A stretch of 20,933 nucleotides of DNA, from positions 1-20,933 of IMG/VR virus record IMGVR_UViG_3300034190_001592. One strand, given 5' to 3'. Position 1 is the first letter of the stretch. Each line of letters starts with the position of its first letter. The notes under the pieces were generated by a model. It worked only from the letters and a program-made list of their open reading frames with translations, did no database searches and was not told the DNA's origin. The position numbers and the translations under genes were made by a program. Of this stretch, positions 5,901 to 18,641 are shown piece after piece. The stretch is from a virus.

Positions 5901-7537
5901 GAAAAATTTTAGACGATTTAAAAATAAATAAATCTAATTTTAAAGATGCATTAAAAGGTAAAGGTGTTACTACGGAAGTAAGAGATTTTTTAAACAACTC
6001 TGTTGAAAGATTTTATGATAAAACAACAAGGACTTTTGATGGTGACTTTCAATTATTTTTAGATGAGATAGGTGGAAAGTTGACACGTAATAATGTGCCT
6101 AACTATGCTTATGTTGGTAGATTTGGTAGAGCTTTACGTATGTCTCCTTTTGGAAACTTTATTGCATTTCCACTAGAAATAATGAGATCAGGTTCTAATG
6201 TAGTAGATACAGCAATTAAAGAAATGTCTAGTAATATACCTTCAATAAAAAAACTTGGTAAAAGAAGATTGGCTAGTTTTGCGGTAACAGTTGGTGGTAT
6301 ACCACAAGTAGCAAAACAAACTGGAATGGTATTAAACGATGTAGACAATGAAGAAATGGAAGCATTACGAAGAGTAGTTCCAGAGTGGTCAAAAAACTCT
6401 ACACTAGTTCCTGTAGGTAGAGATAAAAATGGTTATTTAAAATATGTAGATTTTAGTTATTCTAATGCATATGATTTTTTATTAAGACCTATTCAAGCAG
6501 TTAACAACGCTGTTAACGAAGGTAAAGAAGATGGCATATCTTTAAAAGCTGCCTTAGGTGATGGATTACAAGATGGGATGAGAGAACTATTAGAACCATT
6601 TGCGTCTGAATCTATTTTAACTGAAGCTGTTATAGATTCTGTTATTAGAGGAGGAGTAGGTAAAGATGGCCGAAGAGTATGGAGAGATGAAGATGAACCT
6701 TTTACAAAAATGATAAAAGCTGTTGGTCATATTGGAAAACAAGTAGTTCCGATGGGATCTACTTTTAAACAACTAGAAAGACTGTCTCTTGCAGCAAGAG
6801 ATAAAACAGATGAATATGGTAGAACGTTTAATCTATCAGATGAGCTACCTGGTATATGGGGTTTTAGAGCAGTAAAATCAGACCCTGAAAGAGCTTTACA
6901 ATTTAAAATTTCTTCGTTTGGATCTTCTTTAAAGAAGAGTGAAAATTTATTTACATCACCTTTATTAAGAGGTGGTAGAGTTTCTGCGCAAGATATTTTA
7001 GAAGGATATCAATATTCTGAAGTTAGAAGATTTCATGTTTTAAAACAGATGGCAAAAGATGTTGAAGCTATGCGAGATTTAGGAATGGATGATAGTGTAA
7101 TTAGAAAAAAATTAAAAGCTAGAAAAGGTTTAGGTAAAGATGTTATCAATAATGTTTTGTTTGGAGAGTATACGCCTAAAAAACCTACAGATTTTTTTGT
7201 AACAAGAATGAATGAAATTAATAATGATTTAAATGAAAAAGAAGGTGTTAATATATCCAATCCTTATTATGAAGCATTACCTTCAATTAATAAAATAATT
7301 GATAAAAATTTTAGAATTAATTTATTAGATGACGATATTTCTTTTTCTCAACTAGGTTTTGAATTACCAAAATCTCCATCTATTATTAGTAAGGTATTTA
7401 ATAACGATGGCCCTGTAAGAACTAACATAACAAGCGCAGAACCTGTACTAGCAGCAAGCGGCCAGAACCAAGCTTTAACTAAACCATTCAGTCAACTATC
7501 AAGTATAGAGAAGGAACAATTATTGTTTAACAGATAA
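2996..7537 (+). CDS. Giant putative internal virion / DNA-ejection protein
   Basis: At 1513 residues this is the largest gene in the window. The N terminus (about 24-60) and residues 85-115 are small-residue-rich and weakly hydrophobic. Long Lys/Glu-rich helical stretches follow (about 270-600). A conserved-looking block near 1045-1090 contains SPFGNFIAFPLEIMRSGSN, followed by further charged helices. Size, helical content and placement among virion genes fit a large internal-core or ejection protein such as T7 gp16, or a tape-measure analogue. Unlike T7 gp16, I see no lytic-transglycosylase motif at the N terminus, and there is no clear run of transmembrane helices as in many tape measures. 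The start is fixed by AGGAGGT. A virion role is inferred; a polyvalent protein delivered into the host is the main alternative. Confidence 0.7.
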   Translation: MAVSLEQAYGATAAANKKKSETNFFVSAAAGVASGLIKIPEGIVSLGAELLDLGLGTELAEEVENFFDDLNPFDEVAESRGIGKITQALASIGPVAIKGATLGVKAASSIRAANLARRALNAKKTGTAVSLSKFGKIINKGDELTSGLQDVLTTPLAGGIIGSGVGESLVSDEDIGTLGDMLKGTSLEPFAITMMDTESKEGRAEAFRRLTNRIKFGTEGALFNLGITGVGKGVKKLREPATYGLERWKDGGIMGSVEKALYGLKPAYAGTQAGLEAQRLGIDAIQAAKAEAANEVALLHKSIKDVVPKLDKSLNLDESGILKELQEILQPFPGKKLESIKLEDLPRIIENKSGVKNNARERFKYKYSGTGDKETRRLITPEKIIGEEGQRGFFSVEDYAIVKGGKADKFLNKLEKSGGQKARKDFENVIKNMRSTVDNLTGKISQKDLAVELSQKLHAELGNYLTADYAQFNQSTIPLFRVNRAVAEIKEPALKSYVEQQKRAYRIAESETLKKTGKQIKPEDIIIPDKEIIKFTDEGSAKIDRYLKARNLEELDPDKAIENIVGESAKQSEKNAISVQTSVLKRKKLEEWEEIVLGRIMNPIYNFTNSVTKMASLNYTLDYVNTIAKQGSIKGGRVVVEGGVTKFLNSMNEPIDIAALTQDNIKKGRVKLKSFDANGKPYTEKQILDIATKETEDLLKTEFDRSKYIFGQGDAPGSTVSAAEDLVASGKANSIEEATFMLKDPKQFKQVKSTGIDGLSPLDGKWMQAPQYDTVFDTTTNWLENLGTLGTIYKYGVLGPKTISQISKTVLNALTHVRNFISAGAFVAANGAAVPIGGDFKALLPTSLGGEVLATGKLGEGIFETARKMSAYRLNAKRDAAVADLVRRSARVGVGGGTQAEVGEIIRMQSDFGGNPLGNLAETQGKAFNKILKGKEFAKKFYEKTQQLYVEEDTFHKNVNWFLERNRYGKILDDLKINKSNFKDALKGKGVTTEVRDFLNNSVERFYDKTTRTFDGDFQLFLDEIGGKLTRNNVPNYAYVGRFGRALRMSPFGNFIAFPLEIMRSGSNVVDTAIKEMSSNIPSIKKLGKRRLASFAVTVGGIPQVAKQTGMVLNDVDNEEMEALRRVVPEWSKNSTLVPVGRDKNGYLKYVDFSYSNAYDFLLRPIQAVNNAVNEGKEDGISLKAALGDGLQDGMRELLEPFASESILTEAVIDSVIRGGVGKDGRRVWRDEDEPFTKMIKAVGHIGKQVVPMGSTFKQLERLSLAARDKTDEYGRTFNLSDELPGIWGFRAVKSDPERALQFKISSFGSSLKKSENLFTSPLLRGGRVSAQDILEGYQYSEVRRFHVLKQMAKDVEAMRDLGMDDSVIRKKLKARKGLGKDVINNVLFGEYTPKKPTDFFVTRMNEINNDLNEKEGVNISNPYYEALPSINKIIDKNFRINLLDDDISFSQLGFELPKSPSIISKVFNNDGPVRTNITSAEPVLAASGQNQALTKPFSQLSSIEKEQLLFNR

Positions 7538-9551: not shown

Positions 9552-10997
9552 CTATATCCAATCTTTTAATTCTTCACCCATTACTTGACTAGCTATATTA
9601 ATTTTTTTACGTAAAGCTTTTACAATTCTTTCATCAACAGTGTCTTCTGCAATAATATCTACATAAGTCATAGGTTTAGTTTGGCCTATTCTATCTATTC
9701 TAGCTTCTGATTGTTGTCTTTTCTCTAAATCATAACCATTAGAATAATAAATCATAGTTGATGCAGCAGTTAAGGTAATACCATATCCACCCGTTTGAGG
9801 TGTACCAACTAAAAATCTAACTGGACTATCTGGGTCTTGTATTTCTTTAATTGCTTTTTGTCTGTCTTCCACAGATGTGTTTCCATAATAAGTCATAACA
9901 CAGTTATCCACACCTGTATTAAATTCTTTTTTAATGTGTTCTACGATTGTTTCTATGTCGTGCCTATAATGTGCCCAAATTACAACCTTACCGTGTACTT
10001 CATGTAAAAGATCTATCAATTCTTCTATACGATTATTTTTTAATACTTGAGTAGTACCGTCATCAGATGTAAAATGTCCGCACGTTATTTGATGCAATCG
10101 CATAAGTTGTGTCATAACTGTTGCAGTTGTAGCAGCTTTGCCATTTAAGAAAGCTAAAGCTGTTTGTTTCATTTGAGAATAAACTTTCTTTTGTTCATCA
10201 CTTAATTGTACAATACGTTTCATAAATGTTTTCTTTGGTAGATCTAAGCAGTCATCTTTTAATACACGGTAAGAAAAATTTTTTAATTTTTCTGATAACT
10301 CACCAAGATTACGATAACCCACAACAATCTGTACAGATCGTCCACCAAAGTTAGCTGTTCGCATTACTGCATATCTATTTTTAAAAGTATAAAAAGAACT
10401 ATGATCTAACAACCAAGGACTTAAAAAATAACATTGTGTATACAAATCTAACGGTGATTTAGTAACAGGAGAACCTGTAAGTATTCTTCTATACTTAGAA
10501 TGTTTTGCTAAACCTAATATGTTTTTTGTACGTTTAGCACCAGGGTTTTTAATAGTAGTAGACTCATCAATTGCAATCAATGCATTGTGACAGCTTAAAA
10601 ATTTGTGTGCAAAATCAACACCTTTTTTAGTAGAAAATGCTTCTACATTCATAATTAAAACATGTAATTCTTCACCAGTTTTAAACAAAGTATCAAGTTT
10701 TCTTGCTTGAGTTTTATTTATCATCGCTTGCCATAACACCATTTTTTTATCTATATGATCTACAAGGTGTGTGGGTATTTCTGAATTATACCAGTTCTGG
10801 TATACTCCTTTAGGTGCTATAATTAAAGCACCATTAATTTTACCTTTGTCATAAAGCATAGATATATTATCTATTAATACTTTAGATTTACCTGTACCCA
10901 TTTCCATAAAGTAGGCATACACTTCTTTTTCCCATGACTTTTCTAACGCAGTTAATTGATGCGCGTAAGGCACAGTCTTAAATTTATAGTTAATCAT
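9552..10997 (-). CDS. SNF2-like superfamily II DNA helicase/translocase
   Basis: This 481-residue protein is a complete SF2 motor. It has a Q-motif-like PYAHQ (10-14), Walker A MGTGKS (33-38), Walker B DEST (144-147) in place of DEAH, motif III TGSPV (174-178), motif V GGYGITLTAAS (403-413) and motif VI QQSEARIDRIGQ (428-439) with Arg433 and Arg436. The RIGQ ending is typical of SNF2-type ATPases in phages. It is an ATP-driven DNA translocase or helicase, probably acting in replication, recombination or fork remodelling. It is the only minus-strand gene, with its own predicted promoter (11020-11048), an AGAAG ribosome site 6 bases before the ATG, and a terminator, so it appears to be a single-gene transcription unit. 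No nuclease domain is fused. Confidence 0.93.
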   Translation of the reverse strand: MINYKFKTVPYAHQLTALEKSWEKEVYAYFMEMGTGKSKVLIDNISMLYDKGKINGALIIAPKGVYQNWYNSEIPTHLVDHIDKKMVLWQAMINKTQARKLDTLFKTGEELHVLIMNVEAFSTKKGVDFAHKFLSCHNALIAIDESTTIKNPGAKRTKNILGLAKHSKYRRILTGSPVTKSPLDLYTQCYFLSPWLLDHSSFYTFKNRYAVMRTANFGGRSVQIVVGYRNLGELSEKLKNFSYRVLKDDCLDLPKKTFMKRIVQLSDEQKKVYSQMKQTALAFLNGKAATTATVMTQLMRLHQITCGHFTSDDGTTQVLKNNRIEELIDLLHEVHGKVVIWAHYRHDIETIVEHIKKEFNTGVDNCVMTYYGNTSVEDRQKAIKEIQDPDSPVRFLVGTPQTGGYGITLTAASTMIYYSNGYDLEKRQQSEARIDRIGQTKPMTYVDIIAEDTVDERIVKALRKKINIASQVMGEELKDWI

Positions 10998-11014
10998 TTA
11001 TTACTTCTTTCTAG

Positions 11015-11043
11015 TTGACAACATAAACATAAAATACTATATT
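11015..11043 (+). promoter_or_regulatory. Rightward sigma70-type promoter for the replication operon
   Basis: A consensus -35 TTGACA (11015-11020) is followed by a 17-base spacer and the -10 TATATT (11038-11043), which matches 5 of 6 consensus bases. Transcription would start near 11050, essentially at the ATG (11051). It is read by host RNA polymerase by inference; no phage RNA polymerase gene is in the window. Confidence 0.75.
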
Positions 11044-11048
11044 GTCAA
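11020..11048 (-). promoter_or_regulatory. Leftward sigma70-type promoter for the SF2 helicase
   Basis: Read on the minus strand, TTGACA (11048-11043) is followed by a 17-base spacer and TATGTT (11025-11020), which matches 4 of 6 consensus -10 bases. The expected start near 11013 leaves a leader of about 16 bases with AGAAG before the helicase ATG. Its elements overlap those of the rightward promoter. Confidence 0.6.
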
Positions 11049-11050
11049 GC

Positions 11051-11437
11051 ATGAAAGAAAACACGTTAAACAATCAACCAATTGTATATCTACTACAAGA
11101 AGTACCAGGTACTAAAATAGGTCGTCCTAAATATAATATTATTGGGGCACAAAAATTTGGTACAATAAAAGTTCTTCTTAGAGAAGATACACAAATTGTT
11201 AGAAGTCCTGGACCTATAACTTATCAATTGAGAAGATTGCTAAAAGATTTTTCTGATAAAGATTTTTTACTTTTATCTGGAGATCCTAAAGTTATTGGTT
11301 TGGCAATTGCTGTTGCGTGTGATATTAACAATGGAAAGTACACAACGTTAACTTGGGACAGGCAAGAAAAAATGTATTACCCAACCGAGTTTAACATACA
11401 TGAAAGAGGTGAAATCGATGAGTCAAATAGACTATGA
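11051..11437 (+). CDS. Conserved phage protein of unknown function, first gene of replication operon
   Basis: This is a 128-residue protein from the ATG at 11051. The segment from about residue 10 (IVYLLQEVPGTKIGRPKYNI) to residue 115 has the look of a compact alpha/beta fold, with LLKDFSDKDFLLLSGDP in the middle and WDRQEKMYYPTEFNI near the end. I recall this as a conserved marine-phage gene with no assigned function. No catalytic motif is evident. An alternative TTG start at 11042 would fall inside the predicted -10 element and so is unlikely. No Shine-Dalgarno precedes the ATG, and the predicted transcript begins at about that position, suggesting leaderless translation. It overlaps the next gene by 20 bases. 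Confidence 0.8.
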   Translation: MKENTLNNQPIVYLLQEVPGTKIGRPKYNIIGAQKFGTIKVLLREDTQIVRSPGPITYQLRRLLKDFSDKDFLLLSGDPKVIGLAIAVACDINNGKYTTLTWDRQEKMYYPTEFNIHERGEIDESNRL

Positions 11438-11969
11438 ACAAGATAGAATACAATCTGTAACACAAGCGGATGCTGCAAAGTCATTATCCGATAAGGTTAT
11501 AAAACTTAAAAATTTAGAAGACGAAATTTCTAACGCAGAAAAAAGTGTTTCTAAATTAAAAGAACAAGCAAAACAATTATCGCAGTTTGAAATACCGACG
11601 ATGATGGAAGAAATGCATATTACAAAATTAAAGCTGAAAGATGGTGAGGCCGTAGAAATAAAAAAGATATACGGTGCATCCATACCTCAAGAAAATCAAG
11701 AGGCAGCTTTTACATGGCTTCGAGACAACGACCTAGGTGATATTATTAAAAATGATATTACCGTTACCTTTGGTCGAGGCGAAGACAACAAGGCAAGCGA
11801 ATACGCAAACCTTGCACAAGGTCAGGGGTATGAACCCGTCCAGAAAATTGGCGTTCATCCTCAGACACTTAAAGCAGTAGTCAGGGAGCGTCTCGAATCT
11901 GGACGTGAGATGCCCTCTGATTTATTCAAAACTTACGCAGGTAACAGTACAAAAATCACTAGGAGATAG
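11418..11969 (+). CDS. Conserved phage protein, coiled-coil N terminus and GC-rich C-terminal half
   Basis: This is a 183-residue protein. I chose the ATG at 11418 because AGAGGTGA lies just upstream; an in-frame ATG at 11400 has no such site. Residues 20-55 are a charged coiled-coil-like helix. The rest contains KLKLKDGEAVEIKKIYGA, VTFGRGED and a C-terminal VHPQTLKAVVRERLESG segment, which I recall as a conserved phage family without a firm function. The stretch 11761-11940 has 89 G or C in 180 bases (about 49%), far above its neighbours. It sits in the replication operon, overlapping the gene before and ending two bases ahead of the next start, so a replication-accessory role is plausible. 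Confidence 0.75.
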   Translation: MSQIDYEQDRIQSVTQADAAKSLSDKVIKLKNLEDEISNAEKSVSKLKEQAKQLSQFEIPTMMEEMHITKLKLKDGEAVEIKKIYGASIPQENQEAAFTWLRDNDLGDIIKNDITVTFGRGEDNKASEYANLAQGQGYEPVQKIGVHPQTLKAVVRERLESGREMPSDLFKTYAGNSTKITRR

Positions 11970-11971
11970 AT

Positions 11972-12694
11972 ATGAGTGACGAGAAGCAAATGACGACAAA
12001 GAAAGAAGCAGGATTACCTTCATCAATATTGTTTGAAGATGATGCTGCAGCAGGTTTTGAGAATGTAAAGACAACTAGTTTGGCTTTACCTATCTTAAAA
12101 CTTTTACAAAATGGCTCAGGAGAAGCACAAAGACGTAATCAAAATTATGTTGAAGGTGCAGAACCTGGTATGTTTTTAAATATAGTTACAAAAAAACTAT
12201 ATGATGGAGCAAAAGGAATAGAAGTTATTCCTTGTCATTACAAGTTAGAGTATCAAGAGTGGGCTGATTTTGGAACTGGTTCTAATAGACCAGAAAACAT
12301 ATATGCAGATGACTCTGAGATTCTATCAAAAACAACTAAAGATGGATCTGGTAAAGACCGATTAGATAATGGTAATTATATCTTAACTGTTGGTCAACAC
12401 TATATCCTAATCGCTGATGGAGATTCTATCGAACAAGCTTTAGTATCTATGAGTTCATCTCAAGGTAAAATAAGCAGAGGATGGAATTCTATGATGCTGT
12501 CTATTACCTTTGAAGGTAAAAATGGACCATACAATCCATCATCTTTTAGCCACAGTTATAAATTAACTTCGGTTTTAAATTCTGGTAAAGGCAATCAATG
12601 GTACGGTTATAACGTTACCAAGATTGGTCCAGTTAAAAACGAAGCTTTATACGAACGTGCTAAAAAATTTTACACTAGTTTAGCTAGCAAATAG
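11972..12694 (+). CDS. Conserved phage replication-region protein (possible ssDNA-binding)
   Basis: This is a 240-residue, single-domain-looking protein. Landmarks are LALPILKLLQNGSGEA (about 37-52), GAEPGMFLNIVTKKLYDGAKGI (about 62-83), IPCHYKLEYQEWADFG and a beta-rich second half with SMSSSQGKISRGWNSMM. This layout (a 'P-x-LKLLQ ... GA-x2-G ... P-x-Y-x3-Y-x-EW' pattern) recurs in phage proteins often found near replication genes and sometimes labelled as single-strand DNA-binding. That label is from memory and unverified. AGGAG lies six bases before the start. The gene is followed by a GC-rich hairpin before the primase. No signal peptide or membrane segment is seen. Confidence 0.75.
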   Translation: MSDEKQMTTKKEAGLPSSILFEDDAAAGFENVKTTSLALPILKLLQNGSGEAQRRNQNYVEGAEPGMFLNIVTKKLYDGAKGIEVIPCHYKLEYQEWADFGTGSNRPENIYADDSEILSKTTKDGSGKDRLDNGNYILTVGQHYILIADGDSIEQALVSMSSSQGKISRGWNSMMLSITFEGKNGPYNPSSFSHSYKLTSVLNSGKGNQWYGYNVTKIGPVKNEALYERAKKFYTSLASK

Positions 12695-12703
12695 TGTGAA
12701 TAG

Positions 12704-12733
12704 TGGGCGGCCGATGGAGACGTAGGCCGCCCA
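12704..12733 (+). terminator. GC-rich hairpin between replication genes (terminator or attenuator-like)
   Basis: A perfect 9-base stem (TGGGCGGCC at 12704-12712, GGCCGCCCA at 12725-12733) with a 12-base loop (12713-12724) follows the stop codon of the gene before by 9 bases. Eight of nine pairs are G-C in an otherwise AT-rich region. The downstream T tract is weak (TGTTTAATC). Partial termination, RNA processing or 3'-end stabilisation are all possible. It also lies only 20 bases before the primase ATG. Confidence 0.6.
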
Positions 12734-12752
12734 TGTTTAATCAGAGAGCAAT

Positions 12753-14291
12753 ATGAAAGAGTTAAGTAAATTTATATATATATTTGAAGGTTTAGACATT
12801 GCCCATGGTATCACTAAAAAAAGTGATGAGATTAATGAGAAGGGTAAAAATAAAACTAGTTCCTTTACAATACACAAACCACCTATTGAAAAATTATGGC
12901 AAGATCATTTAGAAGGTAAAGATCCAGGTTTAGGTATTATTCCAATTAATAGAGAGAATAAATTAAAATGGGGTTGTATTGATGTTGATGTATACCCTGT
13001 AGATCATCAAGAGTTTGTTAAAAAATTACAAGAAAAAAATATTAAAGCAATAGTGTTTCGTTCTAAATCTGGTGGAGCACACATATTTGTTTTTACAAAA
13101 ACTTTTGTTCCAGCGATTGTAATGAGAGCAAAATTAAAAATTATAGCTTCAGAAATTGGTTATGCAAGAGCAGAAATATATCCTAAACAAGATACCATTA
13201 ATGTCGCTAGAGGTGACACAGGAAGTTTTTTAAATTTACCATATTATAATTACAAAGATACAGTACGATATGCCTTTAACTCTAAGGGAATTAAAATGTC
13301 TTTAGAAGAATTTTTTAATTACCATAGCGAAATGGCTATGACAGAAGAAGAGTTAACTAATTTTGCTATTGTAAACGAAAAAGAAAATTTAGATTATTTT
13401 AAAGGTATGCCACCATGTCTAGTTACTTTACTAAGTGACGGAGTTCCAAACGGACAAAGAAATAATTGTATGTATAATGTTGGTGTCTATCTTAAAAAAA
13501 GATATCCACAAAATAATGAATGGAAAGGTCGTATGCACATATACGATGAAAAATTTATGAAGCCACCATTAGGTTCTAATGAAGTTGATGTATTAAAAAA
13601 ATCTTTAGAGAATAAAGAGTATAAGTATAAATGTAAAGATGAGCCAATAGCTAGTTTTTGTAGTGCTAAAAAATGTGCAACAAGAGAATTTGGTATAGGA
13701 GAAGATGGTCCTACTTTAGAGATTACAGAAATTAGAAAGTACGAGTCTGAACCACCAATCTGGTTTGTTTCATTAGATGGCCCTACGGTAGAAGTAGACG
13801 GATCAACACTTCATGATGCAGAAAAATTTTCTGTAGCGTGTATGGAACAAATTGGTAAACCTTTAATGCCTGTTCCAAAACATGCATGGCGAAAAGCTTT
13901 AATAAAATTAATGGTAAATGCTAAACCGATAACAGCTCCAGAGTCTTCTAAAATTAGTGTACAACTAACTGAAATTTTGTCTGAGTATATTAATAAAACT
14001 CCAGGTAGAGATAAAGAAGATATTTTAAGAGGTGTTGCTTTTACTGATAAGAATGGCATTACTATGTTTAAGTTTGCAAATTTTTGGAAGTATTTATTAC
14101 GAACAAAAACTTGGGCTGACAAGACGTATCCTAAACAAAAAACATTAAGAATGTTGCAACAGTTATTTAAAGCAACAGAAACTACTCCAAAAATAGATGG
14201 TAAAACACATAGAGTTTTAGAAATGAATCATGTTAATTTAGACAAACCCTCTACAAAAAAATATGAAATGGAGAAAGAACCATGGCAGTAA
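12753..14291 (+). CDS. Archaeo-eukaryotic-type DNA primase (AEP / PrimPol-like)
   Basis: This 512-residue protein makes the primers for phage DNA synthesis. Residues 70-165 hold the AEP catalytic signature: the DxD metal pair D77/D79 (IDVDV), the S-x-H-type motif SKSGGAH ending in H110, and EIYPKQD (141-147) followed by GSFLNLPYY (157-165). Downstream, C222 (in PPCL), the G-x-RNN motif (234-238), C294, C303 and C308 form a four-cysteine set in the order expected for a PriL-like Fe-S or Zn site. The last 180 residues lack clear motifs; they may be a helical PriCT-like or helicase-contact domain. The start at 12753 has only a weak AGAGAG. It overlaps the SF1 helicase gene by 10 bases, so the two products are probably made together. 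TOTE-type primases share these catalytic motifs. Confidence 0.88.
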   Translation: MKELSKFIYIFEGLDIAHGITKKSDEINEKGKNKTSSFTIHKPPIEKLWQDHLEGKDPGLGIIPINRENKLKWGCIDVDVYPVDHQEFVKKLQEKNIKAIVFRSKSGGAHIFVFTKTFVPAIVMRAKLKIIASEIGYARAEIYPKQDTINVARGDTGSFLNLPYYNYKDTVRYAFNSKGIKMSLEEFFNYHSEMAMTEEELTNFAIVNEKENLDYFKGMPPCLVTLLSDGVPNGQRNNCMYNVGVYLKKRYPQNNEWKGRMHIYDEKFMKPPLGSNEVDVLKKSLENKEYKYKCKDEPIASFCSAKKCATREFGIGEDGPTLEITEIRKYESEPPIWFVSLDGPTVEVDGSTLHDAEKFSVACMEQIGKPLMPVPKHAWRKALIKLMVNAKPITAPESSKISVQLTEILSEYINKTPGRDKEDILRGVAFTDKNGITMFKFANFWKYLLRTKTWADKTYPKQKTLRMLQQLFKATETTPKIDGKTHRVLEMNHVNLDKPSTKKYEMEKEPWQ

Positions 14292-15826
14292 TTAGAAAAA
14301 AAATAATGGGACCACCTGGTACAGGTAAAACTTATAGACTTGTTAATCATTATTTAAATAAAGAAATTAATGAACTACATACAGATTCAAAAAAAATAGC
14401 TTACGTTACTTTTAGTAAAGCTGCAGCTTTAGATGGTTCTATAAAAATAGAAAAAGTATTTCCAGGTCTTGAACTTTTATATGTATCTACGTTGCATGGT
14501 ATAGGCACAAAAGAATTAGGTATTAACACCAAAGAAAAACTATTGAAGGGTAAAAAGTGGAAACAATTTAAAAATGTATTTCCAATTTATTCTGCAGTTA
14601 ACTTTGATACTTTTATAAATGAAAACGGAACTACCATACACCAGGATAAAAACTTACAAGTTATAAATTATGCTAGAGCAAAATTAATTAGTTTAGAAGA
14701 ATCATCTATACAATTAAATTATCATCAAGGCGCTGTAGATATATTTTTTGTGCAGCAATTAGAAAGAGACATTGAGTATTATAAAAAATCAAATGTTATG
14801 TATGAATTTTCTGACATGATTAAAATATTTGTTGAGAAACAAAAGCATCTTGCTCTCGATGCAATTTTTCTTGATGAAGCCCAAGATCTGAATCCTTTGC
14901 AATGGGATATGTTTTTTTACATTGAGTCTAAATGTAAACGATCATACATTGCAGGGGATGACGATCAAACAATATATAACTTTCAGGGTGCAGACTCTAA
15001 TATTTTTATAGACCTAGAAGGTGAGAGAGATGATCAAGAAATATCTCATAGGGTTCCAAAAGCAATACATAGAAAAGCCTTGGAAATATTACCTTACATA
15101 AATAAACGAGTAGATAAAAAATGGTATCCTAAAAATGAAGAAGGTGAACTTATTGAAAATTGTTTTTTAGAAGATTTAGATTTTAATAAAGGAGAGTGGA
15201 TGATTTTGGCAACGACTAACAAATTGTTACAGGATTTTTCAGAGCATTTTTATAGAAAAGGTTTAAGAATTTTTGGTAAAGGAAATACTATTCTACCACA
15301 AAAAACATTAGAGGCTTATAGAACTTGGAACAAGCTAAACGATGGACAATTAGCTACAGTTGAAGAAACAAAAAATATGTGGACTTGTTTAAACTATAAT
15401 AAAGGTCATATTAAATATGGTTATTCTAGTGGCAAAACATTGAGTGGTGATGAGTTAATATCTTTAGATATTTTAAAAAAAGATCATGGTTTGTTAATTG
15501 ATGGTGACTGGCAACAATTAAGTTTTGATGAAGATGTAAAAAAATATATAAAAAGTATTTTAAAAAGCGGTGATGATTTATCAACAGATCCGAGAATAGA
15601 ATTATCTACTATACATGGAGCTAAAGGTAGGGAAAGAGAAAATATTGTTTTATGTATAGATTATGGAACAGAGACACAATCAACAATGTTAGCACAAAAA
15701 GCAGCTGAAGATCCAGATTCAACACATAGATTATTTTTTGTTGGTGTAACACGAGCAATGCAAAGATTATATATTTTATCACCATTAACATCACACTACT
15801 ACACAATAGGAGGACAAATAATATGA
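14282..15826 (+). CDS. UvrD/Dda-like superfamily I DNA helicase
   Basis: This 514-residue ATPase carries the SF1A helicase motifs in order: Walker A GPPGTGKT (10-17), motif Ia around TFSKAAA (43-49), Walker B LDEAQD (197-202), motif III GDDDQTIYNFQGA (225-237), motif V STIHGAKGRE (442-451) and motif VI VGVTRAMQRL (487-496). It is shorter than UvrD or Rep (about 670-720 residues) and closer in size to T4 Dda, so it has reduced 1B/2B insertions. It is expected to unwind DNA 3'-5' (UvrD type) or 5'-3' (Dda type); polarity cannot be read from the sequence. It is coupled to the primase by a 10-base overlap and to DUF3310 by ATGA. It probably serves as a fork or recombination helicase. Confidence 0.92.
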   Translation: MAVIRKKIMGPPGTGKTYRLVNHYLNKEINELHTDSKKIAYVTFSKAAALDGSIKIEKVFPGLELLYVSTLHGIGTKELGINTKEKLLKGKKWKQFKNVFPIYSAVNFDTFINENGTTIHQDKNLQVINYARAKLISLEESSIQLNYHQGAVDIFFVQQLERDIEYYKKSNVMYEFSDMIKIFVEKQKHLALDAIFLDEAQDLNPLQWDMFFYIESKCKRSYIAGDDDQTIYNFQGADSNIFIDLEGERDDQEISHRVPKAIHRKALEILPYINKRVDKKWYPKNEEGELIENCFLEDLDFNKGEWMILATTNKLLQDFSEHFYRKGLRIFGKGNTILPQKTLEAYRTWNKLNDGQLATVEETKNMWTCLNYNKGHIKYGYSSGKTLSGDELISLDILKKDHGLLIDGDWQQLSFDEDVKKYIKSILKSGDDLSTDPRIELSTIHGAKGRERENIVLCIDYGTETQSTMLAQKAAEDPDSTHRLFFVGVTRAMQRLYILSPLTSHYYTIGGQII

Positions 15827-16029
15827 AACCATACGACAAACAAATCGGAGGATCTCACTATCAAAAATATAAAATTCAACCAAGCAAGTTTGTAATAGAG
15901 AATAAGTTGCTCTATCCAGAGGGGTGTGCTATAAAATATATTATTAGACATGCAGACAAAGGAAAGAAACAAGATTTATTAAAAGCAATTCACTTTATAG
16001 AAATGATAATCGAAAGGGATTATAAATAA
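15823..16029 (+). CDS. DUF3310 family small phage protein
   Basis: This 68-residue protein shows the DUF3310 signature: GGSHYQ (9-14), a central IQPSKFVIENKL segment and EGCAIKYIIRHADKGK (33-48) followed by a short Leu/Ile helix. Members are common in phage replication regions. They have been annotated as SaV-like or as putative nucleotide kinase-related proteins, although this length holds no P-loop, so the enzyme label is doubtful here. It starts inside the stop of the SF1 helicase (ATGA) with TAGGAGGA upstream, and its stop is directly followed by the polymerase ATG. It is complete compared with the family's usual core. Confidence 0.88.
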   Translation: MKPYDKQIGGSHYQKYKIQPSKFVIENKLLYPEGCAIKYIIRHADKGKKQDLLKAIHFIEMIIERDYK

Positions 16030-17985
16030 ATGTATACTGCGCAAACAGAATGGAATAGTCCTACTTCTTTTCCAGACTTAAAAGACCATAAGTATATTGC
16101 AATAGATTTAGAAACAAGAGATCCAGGTTTAAAATCAAAAGGTTCTGGTGCATTAATTGGAGAAGGTGAGATAGTAGGTATTGCAGTAGCTGTTGAAGGT
16201 TGGTCTGGGTATTATTCTTTTGGTCATTTAGAACAAAATCATTTTGATGAAGTTAGTGTTATGAGTTGGATTAAAGATGTATGTGCTTTACCTGCTACAA
16301 AATTATTTCACAATGCAATGTATGATGTTTGTTGGTTAAAAGCATATGGAGTTAAGATTAATGGACACATTGTAGATACAATGGTGATGGCAGCATTGGT
16401 TGATGAGAACAAATTTTCATACTCATTGAACAGCGTTTCATATGAATGGTTGGGCGAAGTTAAAGATGAAACAGCATTAAAAGAAGCTGCAGCTAAAGCT
16501 GGTGTTGATCCAAAAGCTGAGATGTGGAAACTACCTGATATGTTTGTTGGTGCTTACGCAGAAAAAGATGCAGAACTAACTTTAAAATTGTTTAAAAAAT
16601 TATCTGTTGAGATTAAAAAACAAAATCTTACAAATGTATTTGATCTTGAAACGCAATTGTTTCCATGTTTAATTGATATGAAGATTAAAGGCGTTCGAGT
16701 GGACGTTGAAAAAGCTCATAAATTGAAGCAGCAATTAGCATCACAAGAAGAAAACTTACTCCTAGAAATAAAAAAAGAAACCAACCTAGAACCTCAAATA
16801 TGGGCTGCAAGAAGTATCGCCAAAGTCTTTGATAAATTAGATTTACCTTACGAAAGAACTGCAAAATCAAAAGCACCATCCTTTACTAAAAATTTTCTTC
16901 AAGAACATAAACATCCTATTGTTAATAAAATTGCAAAAGCAAGAGAGATAAACAAAGCACATACTACATTTATAGATACAATTATCAAGTACCAACATAA
17001 AGGTAGAATACATGCAGACATTAATCCTATTAGAGGTGAAGGTGGTGGGACTGTAACAGGTAGGTTTTCATATTCTAATCCAAACCTCCAACAAATACCA
17101 GCAAGAAACAAGCAGCTGGGGCCAATGATACGATCATTGTTTATACCCGAAGAAAAACATACTTGGGGTTGTTTTGATTACTCACAACAAGAACCAAGAC
17201 TAGTTGTACACTATGCAGCATCAAGTCAAAAACTTCGTGATGAAGAAGAGGTAAAAAAAATTGTAGATGAGTTTAATAACAATGAAGTAGACTTTCATCA
17301 AACTGTAGCAGACATGGCAGATATATCTAGAACACAAGCTAAAACAATTAATCTTGGACTATTTTATGGTATGGGTAAAGCAAAACTTCAAGCGGAATTA
17401 GGTCTGTCTACAAAAGATGAAGCAGAAAAATTATTTAATAAATACCATGATCGTGTTCCTTTTGTTAAAGATTTAATGAACAACACTTCAAAAGATGGTT
17501 CAGCATTAGGATATATTAGAACTTTACTTGGAAGAAAATGTAGATTTGATAAGTGGGAATTAAATGAATACAATCCTGGAGTTTTTAGTCCACCTATGAC
17601 TGAGGCAGAGGCAAGAGAAGCTTCTGTTATTAAACAAAAAACAAAAGAAATAGAAAGACAAAAATACAAAATAGAATTAGGCGAGATTACAGAAGATCAA
17701 ATTTTAAAAAATATAAAACCAAATATAAGAAGAGCATTTACTTACAAAGCACTAAACAAATTAATACAAGGGTCAGCAGCAGATATGACTAAACAAGCAA
17801 TGCTAAACCTATATCGAGAAGGTATTGTGCCACACATACAGATACATGATGAACTTGATATTTCTGTAGAATCACCACAGCAAGCTAAAAAAATTATTGA
17901 GATTATGGAAGAAGCTGTTACACTAAAGATCCCCAACAAAGTTGATTATGAATCAGGAAATAACTGGGGAGAAATAAATGGATAA
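16030..17985 (+). CDS. polA: Family A DNA polymerase with 3'-5' exonuclease
   Basis: This 651-residue replicative polymerase has both domains. Proofreading exonuclease: Exo I with D26 and E28 (AIDLET), Exo II HNAMYD (94-99) with D99, and Exo III YAEKD (176-180) with D180; all acidic residues are present. Polymerase: motif A DYSQQE (383-388), motif B R434-x3-K438-x3-L442-x3-Y446, and motif C HDE (606-608). There is no 5'-3' exonuclease domain, as is usual for phage PolA. At the position of E. coli Phe762 there is Leu442 (codon ctt). Surveys of marine viral PolA link that residue to replication speed and lifestyle. It follows DUF3310 with no gap and is the main replicative enzyme of the module. 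Confidence 0.96.
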   Translation: MYTAQTEWNSPTSFPDLKDHKYIAIDLETRDPGLKSKGSGALIGEGEIVGIAVAVEGWSGYYSFGHLEQNHFDEVSVMSWIKDVCALPATKLFHNAMYDVCWLKAYGVKINGHIVDTMVMAALVDENKFSYSLNSVSYEWLGEVKDETALKEAAAKAGVDPKAEMWKLPDMFVGAYAEKDAELTLKLFKKLSVEIKKQNLTNVFDLETQLFPCLIDMKIKGVRVDVEKAHKLKQQLASQEENLLLEIKKETNLEPQIWAARSIAKVFDKLDLPYERTAKSKAPSFTKNFLQEHKHPIVNKIAKAREINKAHTTFIDTIIKYQHKGRIHADINPIRGEGGGTVTGRFSYSNPNLQQIPARNKQLGPMIRSLFIPEEKHTWGCFDYSQQEPRLVVHYAASSQKLRDEEEVKKIVDEFNNNEVDFHQTVADMADISRTQAKTINLGLFYGMGKAKLQAELGLSTKDEAEKLFNKYHDRVPFVKDLMNNTSKDGSALGYIRTLLGRKCRFDKWELNEYNPGVFSPPMTEAEAREASVIKQKTKEIERQKYKIELGEITEDQILKNIKPNIRRAFTYKALNKLIQGSAADMTKQAMLNLYREGIVPHIQIHDELDISVESPQQAKKIIEIMEEAVTLKIPNKVDYESGNNWGEING

Positions 17986-17990
17986 TTATT

Positions 17991-18641
17991 ATGGCATATT
18001 TAAATGCAAACATACCGCCAATCTATGCACAAATAAGAAAGGAGTATCTATATGACAATAAAAAACATCATGGAGAAGTTGAAGATTGTATTGTCTTTGG
18101 TATTAGCTGTATTACAGGAAGGGCTATACTATGGCACGCAATTATGGAAAACGGTGCAGTCTTTTATCGTTTGCCAATTACGGCTTTTATTCAACGTGAT
18201 TATGAACCATCAACTGTTCCCACTAAGAGACTTGATGAATTGGAACTTTGGAATAGCTTTAGTTATTACCCTGCTGTTACTACTTATGATATCTTAAGTG
18301 GTCAACACGGTAAGTATATAGGAAAAGATAAGAAATGGCATCATGGTAATTACCTCTTTACCGTTGACTTTGCACATCCAGAGAGTAATATAGTCGACAC
18401 CGAACATTCGGAAATACCGCACGAACATAAGTGCGCTCACATTATTGCTTTAGACGATGGCAATTTTGCAGCACAACCTAACAATAGAATTATATGGGAC
18501 TTACCTTCTTTTACAGTAAAGAACAACATCCCTGATTGGAAGGTACAGACATCAGAGTGGAACGTAGAAGATTCTGGTAAATGGCAAACTGAAGACACGG
18601 ATAAATTTTTCTACGAAATAGAGGAGAAGAAAAATGATTAA
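17991..18641 (+). CDS. Conserved marine-phage protein of unknown function
   Basis: This is a 216-residue soluble protein. Recognisable blocks are KEYLYDNKKHHGEVEDC (about 18-34), GISCITGRAILWHAIMENGA (about 37-56) followed by RLPITAFI, a central LELWNSFSYYPAVT, and HKCAHIIALDDGNFAAQPNN near 147-166. I recall this as a gene found repeatedly beside replication genes in uncultured marine phages, always without a function. The start at 17991 lacks a good Shine-Dalgarno, but no later in-frame start keeps the N-terminal block. It probably depends on coupling to the polymerase, whose stop is five bases away. A strong AAAGGAG inside it (18038-18044) precedes an out-of-frame ATG. Confidence 0.8.
   Translation: MAYLNANIPPIYAQIRKEYLYDNKKHHGEVEDCIVFGISCITGRAILWHAIMENGAVFYRLPITAFIQRDYEPSTVPTKRLDELELWNSFSYYPAVTTYDILSGQHGKYIGKDKKWHHGNYLFTVDFAHPESNIVDTEHSEIPHEHKCAHIIALDDGNFAAQPNNRIIWDLPSFTVKNNIPDWKVQTSEWNVEDSGKWQTEDTDKFFYEIEEKKND

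Follow-up and report, generated by a model that had tools for sequence, protein, structure and literature searches.

We identified in a 20.9-kb viral record (20,933 nucleotides; hereafter the window) a 34-base-pair element at positions 11015-11048 that, with a probability of about 80% as judged from comparative sequence evidence, comprises two host-type sigma-70 promoters running in opposite directions over the same DNA, likely for compact co-expression of two transcription units and without a committed switch between them. The nearest named relatives of the window are the pelagiphages HTVC027P and 023Pt_psg01 (helicase approximately 65% identical), and its sequence is that of an HTVC023P-type pelagiphage. 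Pelagiphages are among the most abundant marine viruses and their hosts are the most abundant bacteria of the ocean. HTVC027P has no RNA polymerase of its own and is reported to use that of the host throughout infection (PMC12753301). The junction offers a specific model, open to testing, of the way a pelagiphage lacking an RNA polymerase uses the host enzyme, complete with predicted starts and a predicted leaderless mRNA. It lies in the 53 bases of intergenic space that separate a leftward helicase gene from a rightward operon, with the following layout:

9552 to 10997, minus strand: SNF2-type SF2 helicase gene (PF00176, PF00271), downstream of the predicted leftward promoter
11015 to 11020, plus strand: rightward -35, TTGACA
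11020 to 11025, minus strand: leftward -10, TATGTT, 17-base spacer; base 11020 in common with the rightward -35
11038 to 11043, plus strand: rightward -10, TATATT, 17-base spacer
11043 to 11048, minus strand: leftward -35, TTGACA; base 11043 in common with the rightward -10
11051 to 11437, plus strand: first gene of the rightward operon, Pam3 gp32-like protein (PF23992, phrog_5888)
11400 to 17985, plus strand: rest of the replication operon (Pam3 gp33-like and gp34-like proteins, primase, helicase, DUF3310 protein and DNA polymerase A)

Geometry of the proposed promoter pair

The two promoters interlock reciprocally, each -10 abutting the -35 of the other with one base in common (11020 and 11043). 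The sequence features expected of overlapping divergent sigma-70 promoters are present: a -35 and a -10 on each strand, a spacer within 16-18 bases, an outward orientation and physical overlap. The rightward promoter scored 11/12 and the leftward promoter 10/12 as sigma-70-like sequences, the former being the best such match between positions 6000 and 16000. The arms of the inverted repeat (TTGACAACATA and TATATTGTCAA) show 10 matches over 11 positions; over the whole 34-mer, 11 of 17 positions match. These boxes, spacers and matches, first reported by a sequence-only reading of the window, proved correct in coordinates and in letters. The exact pattern TTGACA-N22-TGTCAA has a single copy in the window and never arose in 500 dinucleotide shuffles, and the relaxed form TTGAC-N23..28-GTCAA averages 0.13 copies per dinucleotide shuffle. 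Still, the conservation of the pair in relatives weighs far more than these single-sequence statistics. The window contains 4 copies of TTGACA, two of them in the pair. An apparent depletion of this hexamer (4 versus 17 in shuffles) was discarded, as it ranks only 19/180 among permuted hexamers and other phages do not show it. A search of Rfam matched no element at the junction.

Conservation in related phages

We compared 80 loci carrying the helicase and 80 carrying the rightward gene; the relatives were sampled via the helicase or its neighbor, and the frequencies describe this sampled set. Nearly all of the fetched loci had facing TTGAC and GTCAA cores upstream of the helicase, and both -35 cores were kept in 81 of the 92 relatives with distinct helicase proteins. 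This conservation supports the proposal, already made in the sequence-only reading, of two mutually overlapping divergent promoters. Both promoters are thus conserved in 81/92 distinct loci that keep the two genes, the HTVC027P clade and HTVC023P being exceptions. The gap from TTGAC to GTCAA in these 81 relatives is 23, 24, 26, 27 or 28 bases and never 25, an absence with a naive chance of about 2%. On a quick helicase tree, in which the branches of HTVC023P, DSL-LC04 and 023Pt_psg01 are distant and long, the five gap lengths and the absence of the pair, six states in all, require at least 21 changes. Such natural variants, with five gaps and many independent changes, are a ready series for measuring how far the interlock can go before the promoters interfere.

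Across this range of gaps (23-28 bases), the spacer separating a -10 from the -35 of the same promoter remains 16-18 bases long. Both -10 elements are enriched over shuffles of the spacer only (z of 6.6 rightward and 6.2 leftward), at levels that 0 of 500 shuffles reached, and TA occupies the first two -10 positions in both directions in 31/31 representatives. Some relatives carry a weak -10 in one direction. The matrix applied to -10 elements is an approximation modelled on E. coli. Furthermore, a search of 22 whole phage records recovered the pattern in all 22, mostly as a single copy, and the junction was among the matches in each. The 13 SAR11 genomes searched for TTGAC-N23..28-GTCAA had 39 sites against 112 for reversed-pattern controls and, therefore, no enrichment. 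An interlock that would be a host-wide feature of SAR11 promoters is ruled out by this result.

Two probable promoters rather than one palindrome

The two -35 elements vary independently. At their sixth base, the left and right boxes read TTGACA/TTGACA in 39 relatives, TTGACA/TTGACT in 27, TTGACT/TTGACA in 14 and otherwise in 1. The left and right halves of the same genome were no more complementary than halves taken from different genomes, so the alignment of related phages did not bear out the co-variation of arms that had been suggested as a check. These observations bear on the possibility that the palindrome is the operator of a dimeric repressor or activator, of phage or host origin, that switches the two units through the promoter overlap. 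The inverted repeat in the window, with its 10/11 matches, invites this interpretation, and divergent phage control regions often have operators, as in mycobacteriophage BPs (PMC4557955). However, an operator for a rigid dimer is disfavored because the half-site gap ranges from 23 to 28, the genomes have no excess self-complementarity and the -35s change independently; neither the fixed half-site spacing nor the co-varying arms of such an operator were found. The product of the adjacent gene also lacks a match to a regulator family or a confident structural match to DNA-binding proteins. We consider a dimer operator quite improbable, and the repressor use of the palindrome raised in the sequence-only reading loses ground accordingly. 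The evidence indicates instead two host sigma-70 promoters that are probably under separate selection.

The Pam3 gp32-like protein (11051-11437, plus strand) was discarded as a classical DNA-binding regulator, having no family support and no confident structural match. Its AlphaFold2 model is confident (pLDDT 85) and the best PDB matches are of the CARF/SAVED type (ring nuclease Sso2081, CBASS Cap5, a viral SAVED ring nuclease and Csa3), all with E-values above 1e-3 and TM-scores of 0.35-0.53. A role in nucleotide-signal binding or counter-defence could be envisaged from the model, as a lead only.

A second alternative is that each phage has one real promoter, the facing GTCAA acting as a discriminator or as a translation-start element of the rightward gene. 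The weak -10 that some relatives have in one direction could be accommodated in this way, as could the position of GTCAA, just before the ATG in 42/47 relatives with a gap of 23 or 24. Yet the directional promoters that these phages carry (in L042 and L157, at HTVC027P gp35 and in 023Pt_psg01 at 17038, for example) have the form TTGAC-17-TA with no GTCAA after the -10. GTCAA near the start codon is, for this reason, best read as the opposite -35, and its candidacy as a start-site motif that these phages would use generally was dropped. In addition, the leftward -10 is enriched on its own and, where the left TTGACA is lost, AGTCAA persists as the helicase promoter TTGACT-17-TATATA. A single promoter per phage is, in our estimation, improbable, and the reading as two promoters is retained. 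In the group with gaps of 23 or 24, relatives with AGTCAA on the right side have a rightward -10 changed to TANAAG or TANAAA, with loss of -7T. This base is nearly invariant in E. coli, but in the Alphaproteobacteria that have been studied, SAR11 not being one of them, most promoters lack it (PMC8407463), and its loss in the AGTCAA variants is normal for this class.

Variant junctions

The rightward TTGACA is lost in the HTVC027P clade (L149, L150, L152, L153, L155 and L161, the last being HTVC027P) and in L157. A central TATATA or TATAAT serves there the retained leftward promoter, TTGACT-17-TATATA, and most of these junctions have, by eye, a possible rightward TTTACT 16-18 bases upstream of the central -10. 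The central TATATA-like element (the central sequence of HTVC027P is TATATAAT) appears from these sequences to serve both directions. HTVC023P has yet another arrangement at its junction. The interlock is, therefore, dispensable over longer evolution. The sequence-only reading had named the disappearance of one arm, with both genes retained, as an outcome that would refute its model. This outcome does occur in the distant HTVC027P clade and in L157; across the whole set, 81 of the 92 distinct relatives have the pair.

Another variation is the presence in L012, L021, L068 and L085 of approximately 70-140 extra bases separating the pair from the helicase start, with both promoters staying beside the right-hand gene. 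Three of the insertions (L012:140-220, L021:4850-4965 and L068:5840-5985) contain hairpins close to the helicase Shine-Dalgarno, with fold z values of -4.3, -2.85 and -0.75, respectively, and no match in Rfam. Similar interlocked pairs are also found elsewhere, at gp30|gp31 of HTVC027P (L162:15944-15983; with TTGAT/ATCAA) and at L143:4652, beside a gene for which visual inspection of a short N-terminus suggests, tentatively, a terminase-small-subunit-like product. Both of these pairs are apparently leaderless on the two sides.

Predicted starts and translation

Assuming a discriminator of 7 bases, the geometry of the promoters predicts the following features:

11051, plus strand: predicted rightward transcription start, at the A of the ATG
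11012, minus strand: predicted leftward transcription start
11007 to 11012, minus strand: AGAAAG, predicted Shine-Dalgarno of the helicase, at the 5' end of the leader

Each start is one base away from those given in the earlier reading (11050 and 11013). The mRNA of the rightward replication operon should be leaderless, and that of the helicase should have a 15-nucleotide leader opening with the Shine-Dalgarno AGAAAG. The 3' end of SAR11 16S rRNA, taken from one locus, is CACCUCCUUUCU, which makes AGAAAG a plausible Shine-Dalgarno. In relatives with gaps of 23 or 24, the ATG lies 2-3 bases past GTCAA in 42/47. Most of those with gaps of 26-28 carry GTCAAGAAAGnnATG or a similar sequence, providing a short leader with a Shine-Dalgarno, the exception being four L039-type relatives whose ATG overlaps GTCAA. 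The junctions adopt several geometries: a mainly leaderless right gene at gaps 23/24, mainly a Shine-Dalgarno leader at 26-28 and a shared -10 in the HTVC027P clade.

Exclusion and probable co-expression

Because the promoters overlap, binding of polymerase to one or the other is mutually exclusive, and host RNA polymerase would engage the site facing either left or right, never both ways together. Once bound, it would transcribe the helicase leftward or the replication operon rightward, depending on relative promoter strength. The arrangement would most likely serve to express both units together in little space, in a ratio set by competition for the single site. The comparison shows that the -35s and -10s of both strands are conserved, that spacing and arms change independently, and how the elements lie relative to the start codons; from this we infer transcription both ways, the start positions, leaderless translation on the rightward side and the setting of a ratio.

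The sequence-only reading went further, proposing a built-in either/or decision between helicase and replication operon, with the leftward promoter as the weaker. The geometry does exclude simultaneous binding. However, exclusion applies per binding event and a regulatory either/or decision does not follow from it; a committed decision would require a regulator or some form of memory, neither of which the data indicate. The leftward promoter is the weaker by score in the window (10/12 versus 11/12) but not as a trait of the family, the better -10 among 29 distinct representatives being rightward in 12, leftward in 12 and equal in 5. Basal bidirectional promoters of E. coli did not compete, whereas strengthened, strongly active ones did (PMC12825309). 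By analogy, whether exclusion amounts to competition would depend on occupancy. A true developmental switch, in which a polymerase engaged one way blocks the other and the cell expresses either the helicase or the replication operon, would benefit from an overlap that rules out simultaneous binding and from the near-consensus sequence of both promoters, the setting in which competition showed in E. coli (PMC12825309). Nevertheless, with no memory element or regulator indicated, both products belonging to DNA metabolism and neither direction consistently stronger in relatives, we regard such a switch as very improbable. Beyond compact co-expression, the interlocked module could be a compact ratio-setting device of HTVC023P-type pelagiphages, its geometry having changed while exclusion was kept by selection on exclusion itself beyond compactness, although we hold this to be rather unlikely.

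Comparison with known divergent promoters

The element belongs with the overlapping divergent promoters, as a compact form of them. Classical examples are bioA/bioB and argE/argCBH of E. coli, whose divergent promoters overlap, exclude each other's polymerase and have a dedicated operator (for BirA and ArgR, respectively). The pelagiphage element is alike in exclusion and differs in the lack of a supported operator and in the reciprocal -35/-10 interlock. It also resembles the bidirectional promoters described by Warman, Grainger and colleagues in that a short sequence binds sigma-70 polymerase in two orientations with mutual exclusion (PMC10268837, PMC12825309). Those promoters, however, have a symmetric shared -10 and opposite-strand starts 7-25 bp apart, whereas the -10s are separate here, each overlapping the other promoter's -35, and a distance of 39 bp separates the predicted starts at 11012 and 11051; the element is, thus, not of that type. 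The junction of the HTVC027P clade is closer to the shared -10 type (PMC10268837, PMC12825309). Temperate phages also have divergent early promoters at a control junction, Prep and PR of mycobacteriophage BPs among them, but these pick lysis or lysogeny via a repressor (PMC4557955), whereas DNA-metabolism genes flank both sides here. HTVC027P, the relative that has been studied, is reported to be lytic (PMC12753301). In the open-access literature we found no earlier description of the interlocked geometry in phages and none of pelagiphage promoters.

Other observations

The protein encoded after DNA polymerase A (17991-18641, plus strand) has no Pfam family and matches a PHROG described as ferredoxin, in disagreement with the PurM-like annotation of the gene found at the same place in HTVC027P and 023Pt_psg01. 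Finally, the minus strand of HTVC027P at L162:17753-17873 matched the Flavobacterium-1 RNA of Rfam (RF02976) with 90 bits, in a pelagiphage.
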